Source: Deltaproteobacteria bacterium (GTDB lineage: Bacteria; Desulfobacterota; Desulfobaccia; Desulfobaccales; Desulfobaccaceae). From it: a DNA stretch of 64,000 bases. The notes beneath the pieces are model-generated. The model was not told where the DNA came from. It was given only the letters and a program-made list of their open reading frames with translations, and ran no database searches. The position numbers and the translations under genes are program-made. Of the stretch, positions 22,837-26,328 are shown piece by piece; the first letter of the stretch is position 1; each line of letters begins with the position of its first letter. Location: assembly GCA_019309545.1 (NCBI GenBank), contig JAFDGA010000008.1, positions 1 to 64,000 on the forward strand, in the 5' to 3' direction.

Positions 22837-22865
22837 TTGACAGACCCTGATTATTTTATCTTAAT
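22837..22865 (+). promoter_or_regulatory. strong sigma-70-type promoter of the candidate RNA unit
   Basis: A consensus TTGACA at 22837-22842, a 17-base spacer, and CTTAAT at 22860-22865. It points at the hairpin-rich stretch at 22870-23005 and not at any long ORF close by. Predicted start of transcription is near 22872. Confidence 0.5.
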
Positions 22866-22871
22866 AAGATA

Positions 22872-23005
22872 AGCAAACAACAGAGGCTCTACTAAAGCTT
22901 GAAGAAAGGCATTGTTCCAGGACCCGCAATCAGGCCAACTAGTGGGTCTGGGGATCAAAAAAAACTGGGTGCCTTACCCGGGTCAGGCACGATCCGGGTT
23001 TTTTT
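22872..23005 (+). ncRNA. candidate small RNA or leader ending in an intrinsic terminator
   Basis: About 134 bases between a promoter and a terminator. Three stems are visible. A short stem at 22884-22900 pairs AGGCT with AGCTT. A long hairpin at 22917-22951 pairs CCA-GACCC with GGGTC-TGG. A terminator stem at 22976-22999 pairs ACCCGG with CCGGGT and is followed by seven T. A competing stem, GTGCCT at 22969-22974 with AGGCAC at 22985-22990, excludes the terminator, as in riboswitches and attenuators. No known riboswitch consensus (including the cobalamin box) was recognised. It could be a free sRNA or a leader of the following 45-residue ORF and RACo gene. Confidence 0.45.
22976..23005 (+). 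terminator. intrinsic terminator of the candidate RNA unit
   Basis: A six-base stem, ACCCGG and CCGGGT, with a 12-base loop and a run of seven T at 22999-23005. It would end transcripts starting at the 22837 promoter before they reach the 45-residue ORF. Confidence 0.6.
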
Positions 23006-23127
23006 ATCTGAGGTAGAGAGCCCGGCGACCTAGCCCAGGGAACACCACGACCTCAAGTCCCTTAAAATATGGAATAACCCCTGATTCAGAGGAGAATGGC
23101 CGGTGGCGGATGTGGTTATAACTTTTT

Positions 23128-23265
23128 ATGATTTCCCAAGAACAGAAAATTGAAGAAATCGTAATTGTTAAGGATAAAGAGGAGGCCCTGCGCTATCTGG
23201 CTGCCTTACTGGAGTGGATCAAAGGACATCCGGGCTTTGCCTACGGCTATCGCCCTTTTAAATAA
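23128..23265 (+). CDS. small 45-residue protein
   Basis: An ATG at 23128 opens 45 codons ending at TAA 23263-23265. The protein is MISQEQKIEEIVIVKDKEEA followed by a helix and a short basic, aromatic end (GYRPFK). It has the composition of a real protein: amphipathic helix, no rare-codon bias, and an in-frame stop just before the ATG. There is no good ribosome site. It lies between the candidate RNA and the corrinoid activator and may belong with it. No family was recognised. Confidence 0.45.
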   Translation: MISQEQKIEEIVIVKDKEEALRYLAALLEWIKGHPGFAYGYRPFK

Positions 23266-23348: not shown

Positions 23349-25295
23349 GTGGTAGCTGTGAAAAAGACCGTTTGCTTTCAGCCTTATAATATTACTGTAG
23401 AGGTCGAAGAGGGAGAAAATCTATTAAGGGCCGCCATGGAGGCCGGTGTCCATATCAATGCCTCATGTGGCGGCGAAGGGGTCTGCGGCAAATGTAAGAT
23501 CATCCTGGAACAGGGTGAATTGGAGAGTAAACGCGGGGTCACCCAGAGTGAGGAAGACTGGCGGCTGGGCTTTCGGCTGGCCTGTCAGTCGCAGGTGGTC
23601 TCCGATGTCGTCGTCCGCATCCCCCCGGAATCGCTGTTAGACCGCAAGGTCTTGCGGCTCAAGCCCAAAACCGCCCGCTTGCGGCCGATGCCGTTCGATA
23701 TTGCCGAACTGCAGGCCAGTGGCCGTTACAATCCCGCCTTCCAGAAAAAATTTGTCAAATTGCCGCCCCCCACTTTGGCCGACAACGTCTGTGATCTGCG
23801 GCGCTTACGGGAAGGTCTGAGAAAACAACACGGCCTCGATAACATCACCCTGGATTTCTTCCTGCTCCGCAAATTGGCTCATGTGCTGCGAGAAAAAGAT
23901 TTTGAGGTTACCGCGGTCCTCGATTTTGCCCAGCGGCGCTCCCGCAAGCCGCGGCTGGTCGACGTCGAACCGGGGGATACCACTGCCGCCCACTATGCCA
24001 TCAGCATCGACATCGGCACTACCACGGTCTGGGGCCAGTTGCTGGAACTGACCGAGGGCAAGATCATCGGTGAAGCCGCGGAATACAATGCCCAGATCAG
24101 TTATGGGGAGGATGTCATTAGCCGGATCGTCTACGCCCAGAAGCCGGAGGGCCTGGACAAGATGCAAAAGCTGGTGGTCAGCACCATCAATCAGGTTATC
24201 CACCGCCTGTTGAAGAAACACCGGGTTGCCCGAGACCAGATCTCTCACCTGACCTTAGCGGCCAACACCACCATGACCCACCTTTTTTTAGGACTGGAGC
24301 CCAAATATATCCGGCTGGCCCCCTATACTCCGACCACCTGCTCGGTACCTCCGGTCCGGGGCCGGGATCTGGGGCTGGATGTCGCTGAACATGTGTTTGT
24401 GTATTGTATCAGTTCGGTCTCCAGCTACGTGGGCGGCGATATCGTCTCCGGGGTGCTGGGCTCGGGAATGTATCAGGAGAGCAAGTTAACCCTGTTTATC
24501 GATATTGGCACCAACGGCGAAATTGTTGTCGGTAATCAGGAATGGATGGCCTGTGCCGCCTGTTCTGCGGGGCCGGCCTTTGAAGGCGGCGGCATCCGTT
24601 TCGGGATGCGGGCTACCCAGGGAGCGATTGAGGATGTCAGCATCAATCCGGCCAATGCCGAGCCCATGCTGATGACCATCGGTATGGTCAAACCCAAAGG
24701 CATCTGCGGCTCCGGCCTGATAAATATCCTGGCCGCCTTGATGGAAACCGGCATTATCGACCCCAACGGCAAGTTCCGGGAAGATGTGGACACCCCCCGG
24801 TTGCGGATAGGAGAAGATGGACGGGAATATGTCCTGGCCTGGGCGGCCGACACCCAGATCGACCAGGATCTGACTCTGAGCGAAGTGGACATCGACAACT
24901 TGATGCGGGCCAAGGGGGCGATGTATGCCGGCTACCTCACCCTGTTGCAGAATATTGGGCTTGACATCCAGGACGTCGAACAGGTAATTCTGGCCGGGGC
25001 TTTCGGCAATTTCATCAATATTGAAAATGCTATTACCATCGGGCTGATGCCTGACCTGCCCCTGGACAGATTTCACTTTGTCGGCAATGGCTCCTTATTA
25101 GGGGCCACTTGCGTGGCTTTTTCCCGGGAAATGCTGGAGGAAGAACGCCGCGTGGCCTTGATGATGACCAATTTCGAACTTTCGGAAACCCCTGGTTTTA
25201 TGGACCAATATGTTGCAGCCCTGTTTTTGCCGCATACCAAAGCAGAGTATTTCCCCAGCGTCCAGGAGCGCCTGAAAAGTTTGGCGCCATCCTAA
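23349..25295 (+). CDS. corrinoid protein reductive activator (RACo-like, 2Fe-2S plus DUF4445/ASKHA)
   Basis: A 648-residue protein. Residues 1-90 form a plant-type 2Fe-2S ferredoxin domain (CGGEGVCGKCK and LACQSQ). After a linker, the C-terminal ASKHA-type ATPase domain begins at about residue 215 with AISIDIGTTTVWGQLLEL and holds FIDIGTNGEIVVGN and MACAACSAGPAFEGGGI. RACo proteins use ATP hydrolysis to reduce the inactive Co(II) corrinoid of methyl-transfer proteins back to Co(I), as needed by the Wood-Ljungdahl pathway. Its presence suggests acetyl-CoA pathway use. Start is GTG at 23349 or 23358. Confidence 0.9.
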   Translation: MVAVKKTVCFQPYNITVEVEEGENLLRAAMEAGVHINASCGGEGVCGKCKIILEQGELESKRGVTQSEEDWRLGFRLACQSQVVSDVVVRIPPESLLDRKVLRLKPKTARLRPMPFDIAELQASGRYNPAFQKKFVKLPPPTLADNVCDLRRLREGLRKQHGLDNITLDFFLLRKLAHVLREKDFEVTAVLDFAQRRSRKPRLVDVEPGDTTAAHYAISIDIGTTTVWGQLLELTEGKIIGEAAEYNAQISYGEDVISRIVYAQKPEGLDKMQKLVVSTINQVIHRLLKKHRVARDQISHLTLAANTTMTHLFLGLEPKYIRLAPYTPTTCSVPPVRGRDLGLDVAEHVFVYCISSVSSYVGGDIVSGVLGSGMYQESKLTLFIDIGTNGEIVVGNQEWMACAACSAGPAFEGGGIRFGMRATQGAIEDVSINPANAEPMLMTIGMVKPKGICGSGLINILAALMETGIIDPNGKFREDVDTPRLRIGEDGREYVLAWAADTQIDQDLTLSEVDIDNLMRAKGAMYAGYLTLLQNIGLDIQDVEQVILAGAFGNFINIENAITIGLMPDLPLDRFHFVGNGSLLGATCVAFSREMLEEERRVALMMTNFELSETPGFMDQYVAALFLPHTKAEYFPSVQERLKSLAPS

Positions 25296-25389: not shown

Positions 25390-26328
25390 ATGACCGTCCA
25401 ACTCCTTATCGGTACCCGCGGTAGCCCCCTGGCCCTGGCCCAGGCCCGCTGGGTCCAGGCCCGGTTAGAGGCTCACCATCCTCATTTACAGGTAACCCTT
25501 ACCATTATCAAAACCACCGGAGATAAAATTCTGGATGTGCCCCTGGCCCAGGTGGGGGGCAAGGGACTGTTTACCAAGGAAATCGAACAGGCCCTGTTGG
25601 CCAGGGAAGTGGATTTGGGGGTGCACAGTATGAAAGATGTTCCGGCCGAGTTGCCCGCTGGATTGACGATCAGCACTATCACGACGCGCGAGGATTGGCG
25701 GGATGCCCTGATTTCGCATCGATATCCGCGGCTGGAGGATATTCCCGCCGGAGGCCGGATCGGCACCAGCAGCCTGCGCCGCCGGGCCCAACTGCTGCAC
25801 CAGCGGCCGGATCTCAACATCGTGCCCCTAAGAGGTAACGTCGATACCCGACTTCGCAAACTGGCGGAGGAAAATCTGGACGCTATCATCCTGGCGGTGG
25901 CGGGCCTGAAGCGACTGGGACTCGAACATCTGATCACCAGCTACCTGCCAGCCCCGCAGATGCTTCCGGCCATTGGCCAGGGTGCCCTGGGATTGGAACT
26001 GCGGCGCCAGGATACCTGCTCCCAGGAACTGGTGGCCTGTCTCGATGATCCGGCTAGCCGGGTCGCGGTCCGGGCCGAACGCGCCTTTCTGGCCCGGCTC
26101 CAGGGCGGCTGTCAGGTGCCGGTGGCCGCCCTGGGTTTGCTGACGGAGGGCCGTCTGACCCTGGAGGGCCTGATCAGTGATCCAGAGGGGCGTCTGCTGC
26201 TCCGAGAGAAGGTAGAGGGGATCCCCAAGGACGCCGAAACCCTGGGAACTAGCCTGGCTGAATCCCTTCTGGACCAGGGCGGCCGGGAAATCCTCAGCCA
26301 AATCTATGGCCGGCCCCTAAATATTTAA
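25390..26328 (+). CDS. hemC: porphobilinogen deaminase (hydroxymethylbilane synthase)
   Basis: A 312-residue protein. IGTRGSPLALAQARWVQ opens it, HSMKDVPAELP and GTSSLRRRAQL mark the catalytic core, and the cofactor cysteine is in LQGGCQVPVAAL. It polymerises four porphobilinogen units to hydroxymethylbilane, the route to siroheme, heme and cobalamin. That fits with the corrinoid activator just upstream (94 bases), though no shared regulation is visible. Length is normal for the family. Confidence 0.96.
   Translation: MTVQLLIGTRGSPLALAQARWVQARLEAHHPHLQVTLTIIKTTGDKILDVPLAQVGGKGLFTKEIEQALLAREVDLGVHSMKDVPAELPAGLTISTITTREDWRDALISHRYPRLEDIPAGGRIGTSSLRRRAQLLHQRPDLNIVPLRGNVDTRLRKLAEENLDAIILAVAGLKRLGLEHLITSYLPAPQMLPAIGQGALGLELRRQDTCSQELVACLDDPASRVAVRAERAFLARLQGGCQVPVAALGLLTEGRLTLEGLISDPEGRLLLREKVEGIPKDAETLGTSLAESLLDQGGREILSQIYGRPLNI

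Follow-up and report, generated by a model that had tools for sequence, protein, structure and literature searches.

A probable orphan expression platform of a cobalamin riboswitch upstream of a RACo-type gene

A unit with a promoter, a hairpin and a terminator is present at positions 22837-23006 of the window, the whole stretch of 64,000 nucleotides that was analysed. We believe, with good though not complete confidence, that this unit is what remains of a transcriptional cobalamin riboswitch, namely its orphan expression platform, a relic that has no aptamer and is locked in termination. Most likely, it is an evolutionary leftover and not a new kind of RNA switch. The features of the region were as follows.

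22837..22865, + strand: sigma-70-type promoter, TTGACA-17-CTTAAT, read directly; 87-88% identical over 32-37 nt in the sister species G001
22866..22940, + strand: leader, at the position of the cobalamin aptamer in relatives; no aptamer remnant found by search
22906..22975, + strand: long hairpin, from folding, predicted also to capture the former 5' antiterminator arm
22941..23005, + strand: probable orphan expression platform of a cobalamin riboswitch, from the match of model R1
22956..22973, + strand: conserved antiterminator loop, from alignment columns; consensus CAAGnAARCUGGGUGCA, CAAAAAAAACUGGGUGCC in the window
22976..23005, + strand: intrinsic terminator, stem 22976-22999, Ts on to 23005
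23103..23265, + strand: small-ORF copy; the ATG frame 23128-23265 (45 codons) remains, with a 5' part from GTG 23103
23349..25295, + strand: RACo-type corrinoid activation protein (Pfam PF14574, PF17651, PF17650, PF00111)
25390..26328, + strand: porphobilinogen deaminase, hemC (Pfam PF01379, PF03900)

The consensus promoter noted in the first-pass annotation was confirmed, with the -35 hexamer at 22837-22842 and, after a spacer of 17 nt, the -10 hexamer at 22860-22865. A simple promoter scan misses it because the scan demands A at the second position of the -10 element. Judging from the promoter, transcription would start at about 22872. The intrinsic terminator, the 45-residue ORF and the RACo-like gene behind it were likewise present. 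The fold of 22860-23010 was better than expected by chance (-48.7 kcal/mol, z = -3.0, with 1 of 200 shuffles equally good). The long hairpin has inner arms at 22920-22927/22942-22949, and its outer arms pair 22906-22918 with 22951-22955 and 22968-22975. Terminator-like sites in the region were not above chance (4 found, 7.8 expected). Two mutually exclusive stems had also been proposed. The hairpin and the terminator are compatible in the minimum-energy fold, and the exclusion holds for the ancestral antiterminator and the terminator.

When 59 related genomes were searched at the DNA level, three places, all of them directly 3' of a cobalamin aptamer, matched the final 55 bases of the unit, and a pattern search added two loci where the platform lies behind an aptamer. 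Behind further aptamers of the order, a motif recurred, aaGGAYCAAGnAARCUGGGUGCAAUCC, followed by a terminator. The covariance model R1 was made from an alignment of 30 relatives with the window left out. It matched the window at 22941-23005 (33 bits, E = 3.1e-6), which was its sole match in the 64 kb; when the whole genome was searched, the E-value of this platform was 1.2e-4. The nearest platforms, from another family of the order, were 71% identical to that of the window, and the platform of the intact btuB-type riboswitch of its own genome, at G000:C2:108267-108575, was 63% identical, which counts against our reading.

R1 found 103 platforms in 29 genomes from the order, and 100 of them had an RF00174 aptamer upstream, counted within 250 nt on the same strand. 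The remaining three were a contig end (G003:C4), a remnant (G011:C197) and the window. Of 297 genomes sampled from the phylum, 70 had the motif, and 58 of these, with 96 platforms, were outside the order. The aptamer was upstream in 91 of these 96 platforms (78 among the aptamers listed and 13 by direct Rfam search), and the five exceptions were three contig ends, the G011 remnant again in G171, and a false match in a protease gene. Altogether, an RF00174 aptamer lay just upstream in 191 of 199 platforms, and the other eight comprised four contig ends, one shared remnant counted twice, the false match and the window. As orphan platforms, G003:C4, G084:C121, G292:C27 and G191:C213 were rejected as contig ends, G274:C28 because its match falls inside the protease gene, and some further apparent cases because direct Rfam search confirmed an aptamer. 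By comparison of sequences, the motif serves cobalamin riboswitches across the phylum as their expression platform, and the 3' half of the unit is homologous to it.

Examples of this platform from across the phylum are L090 1384-1447, L104 1415-1476 and L003 1491-1553. In the order, 33 of 133 RF00174 aptamers were without an R1 platform; most of them have low scores, and their output may work in a different way. Weak R1 matches were seen at L071 8002-8059 (- strand, 18.6 bits) and L069 7228-7276 (- strand, 16.4 bits), apparently corresponding places in two sister species, with a nuoA-like ORF nearby in L071. Several genera shared a short ORF, MKDGLIVYLV..., at the riboswitch-controlled loci L002, L003, L005, L006 and L008, and several of these loci also carried a TonB-receptor-like gene and an oppositely oriented MoaA-like gene.

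It is hardly credible that an ordinary intergenic terminator came to resemble the platform by chance. Simple terminators are common, and R1 gives at least one false match, that in the protease gene, but the E-values of R1 in the window and in the whole genome speak against chance. The identity also extends beyond the terminator stem into the loop (CAA...AAACUGGGUGC), the position and orientation suit a riboswitch behind its promoter, and comparable R1 scores were not seen at many unrelated terminators of the same genomes.

The aptamer itself was absent from the window. Rfam search of the unit at gathering and relaxed thresholds (E up to 10) returned chance matches only and no RF00174. This family models the aptamer only and does not cover the expression platform. 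The earlier statement that the unit matches no known class, including cobalamin, is thus right for the aptamer and wrong for the platform. The -35 element lies 104 nt from the platform in the window, but 234-292 nt from it in those intact riboswitches where a -35 can be detected, a range that ignores inner TTGAMW matches (201-205 and 246 nt) where an outer one is present. This indicates that about one aptamer length is absent from the window, where the gap between promoter and platform is too short for an aptamer of about 190 nt. With RF00174 and pairwise comparison, no aptamer remnant above the level of shuffles was found in the window leader. There is no aptamer fragment left as proof of loss at this site, which counts against our reading. 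The aptamer may have been deleted in place or, given that RACo loci in other genomes have no intact riboswitch, an isolated platform may have arrived by recombination, a point that also counts against our reading.

Both mutually exclusive helices of the platform were strongly supported by covariation in 102 aligned sequences. In the antiterminator helix, 92.7% of the cells were paired, with 104 double-change cells, and in the terminator helix, 97.5% were paired, with 109 double-change cells; in each case 0 of 500 shuffles were as high. At column 38 of the alignment, position 22976, all 101 relatives have C, and the window alone has A. A22976 breaks the otherwise invariant core pair of the antiterminator with G22953 (G13-C38 becomes G-A). 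The same A22976 pairs with U22999 as the outermost pair of the terminator, a double change from the C-G of nearly all others. Counting this A-U for C-G, 9 of 10 terminator pairs are kept in the window, with a slightly better energy than average (-15.9 versus -13.8 kcal/mol). The antiterminator helix keeps 3 of 5 core pairs, the lowest of the 102, and its energy is worse than average (-4.4 versus -6.5 kcal/mol). With the 3' half of the terminator removed, the predicted antiterminator probability was 0.00 in the window, versus a median of 0.86-0.92 in the 101 relatives, none of which was that low. The 5' antiterminator arm was paired upstream with a probability of about 0.9 in the window versus a median of 0.01 in relatives.

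The loop between the antiterminator arms is near-invariant in cobalamin riboswitches across the phylum and lies outside the RF00174 match. Complementarity between loop and aptamer recurred about 10-15 nt 5' of the GACCTGCC box (69/96), and a second one about 140 nt 5' of this box (64/96). As the loop hardly varies, its pairing with the aptamer is no more than a candidate. The loop was also considered as a copy of the aptamer P4-L4 strand (GAAGCCGGUGCAA), and this was rejected, as the similarity did not exceed the level of shuffles (mean z 0.7).

Intact relatives follow the order promoter, aptamer, platform and genes. When the ligand is absent, the platform would be expected to form the antiterminator (GGAY.../...AUCC), which would block the terminator; when the ligand is present, the terminator would form. 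In the window, with the aptamer gone, the core pair of the antiterminator broken, its 5' arm predicted to be held by the upstream hairpin and the terminator whole, RNA polymerase starting from about 22872 would halt near 23005 whatever the cobalamin level. The expected output would be an RNA of about 135 nt with little read-through into RACo-hemC. Sequence comparison shows the homology to the platform, the missing aptamer, the broken antiterminator and the preserved terminator; we infer from this that the unit is transcribed, that it terminates constitutively and that it is a relic. The riboswitch or attenuator layout seen in the first-pass annotation is right as to the origin of the unit, but a working switch finds no support, given the broken, sequestered antiterminator and the lack of the element upstream of RACo in relatives.

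A new sensor in 22866-22950 might have replaced the cobalamin aptamer and still govern termination. The promoter, structured leader and terminator do stand in the correct order for such a working riboswitch or attenuator, but the broken antiterminator is not predicted to form, and no homologue of the 5' leader that could show covariation turned up in the relatives. We regard this possibility as very improbable.

The platform may instead have been retained as a stand-alone sRNA or a constitutive attenuator, that is, as a stable RNA of about 135 nt with a loop that works in trans or a leaky terminator that determines the expression of RACo-hemC. The double change in the terminator and the nearly whole conserved loop count against our main reading, and could reflect selection for the RNA, not decay. 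The promoter conserved in G001 and the fold that beats shuffles point the same way. However, the RNA is missing from G001, the 297 genomes contain no similar aptamer-less unit except the one shared remnant, and one pair with a double change amounts to a single observation. We consider this explanation unlikely. That a platform cut loose from its aptamer was kept as an RNA of about 135 nt or a fixed attenuator, with selection preserving terminator and loop, seems quite unlikely to us. A role as sRNA or attenuator, though possible, is unsupported, and for a function of the short RNA just the kept terminator pair and the conserved loop can be cited.

All 29 genomes from the order have RACo, and Desulfobacca-like MAGs are the nearest named genomes in which a close RACo occurs. 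At the RACo loci of the other genomes, neither a platform nor an intact riboswitch was found; the RACo locus of the window is the only one with a platform. G001 retains the promoter, followed by a 281-nt leader in which there was no platform, no aptamer trace above shuffles and nothing significantly similar to the window leader; a promoter kept without the platform favours our reading. G002 was outside the leader comparison, since its contig ends within the small ORF. The element thus stands upstream of RACo in no relative, and the lack of conserved stems there is what the first-pass annotation had named as refuting its proposal.

Compared with the intact 52-aa homologue in G001, the small ORF has a one-base frameshift in its 5' part, and a Pfam search of the window copy gave no match. 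It belongs to a family of proteins of about 52 aa (MADVVITFPVSQEQK...IKGHPGHACG) that occurs in 28 of 29 genomes, frequently as two tandem copies (for example, L017 5629-5784 and 5963-6091; L075 3968-4354), and its gene often adjoins one starting LALVADTHxYxAGLP.

These results suggest that, once its sensor is lost, a riboswitch can persist as a terminator mimicking a new regulatory RNA, and such aptamer-less remains cannot be recognised by RF00174, which covers the aptamer alone. The comparison also revealed that cobalamin riboswitches throughout the phylum share a platform, which has two alternative helices, both covarying, and a loop that hardly varies. The literature searched contained no account of a cobalamin platform without its aptamer. 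In delta-proteobacteria, B12-elements control B12 synthesis, transport and B12-independent enzymes (PMC545781). They belong to the same broad bacterial group and riboswitch class as the window, but the sections of that report considered here describe neither aptamer-less platforms nor a RACo locus.

Compared with a cobalamin riboswitch of the RF00174 class with a transcriptional platform, the unit shares the upstream promoter, the platform loop and terminator, and the strand order. It differs in having no aptamer or RF00174 score and in its broken, sequestered antiterminator. In the metE corrinoid riboswitch of Priestia megaterium, over-stabilising the upstream hairpin P13 by mutation leads to termination with or without ligand (PMC10653944). 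The metE platform also has mutually exclusive antiterminator and terminator helices, and its P13-locked termination resembles the state predicted for the window. Unlike the window, which has no aptamer to kiss, metE has an aptamer, an L5-L13 kissing loop and another platform arrangement (PMC10653944). A platform remnant in which unrelated sequence replaces the aptamer was noted at L200 2353-2417 (- strand) and L245 645-709, near-identical in genomes of two families; it precedes a long ORF starting MLxNARPVxIASIMWSSHMPTF, and horizontal transfer or a contaminant common to both assemblies may explain it. The remnant G011:C197 / G171:C183 resembles the window in that platform and terminator are retained and an RF00174 aptamer is undetectable, but it lies at another locus with other genes, has unrelated sequence at the aptamer position and still carries its antiterminator arm.
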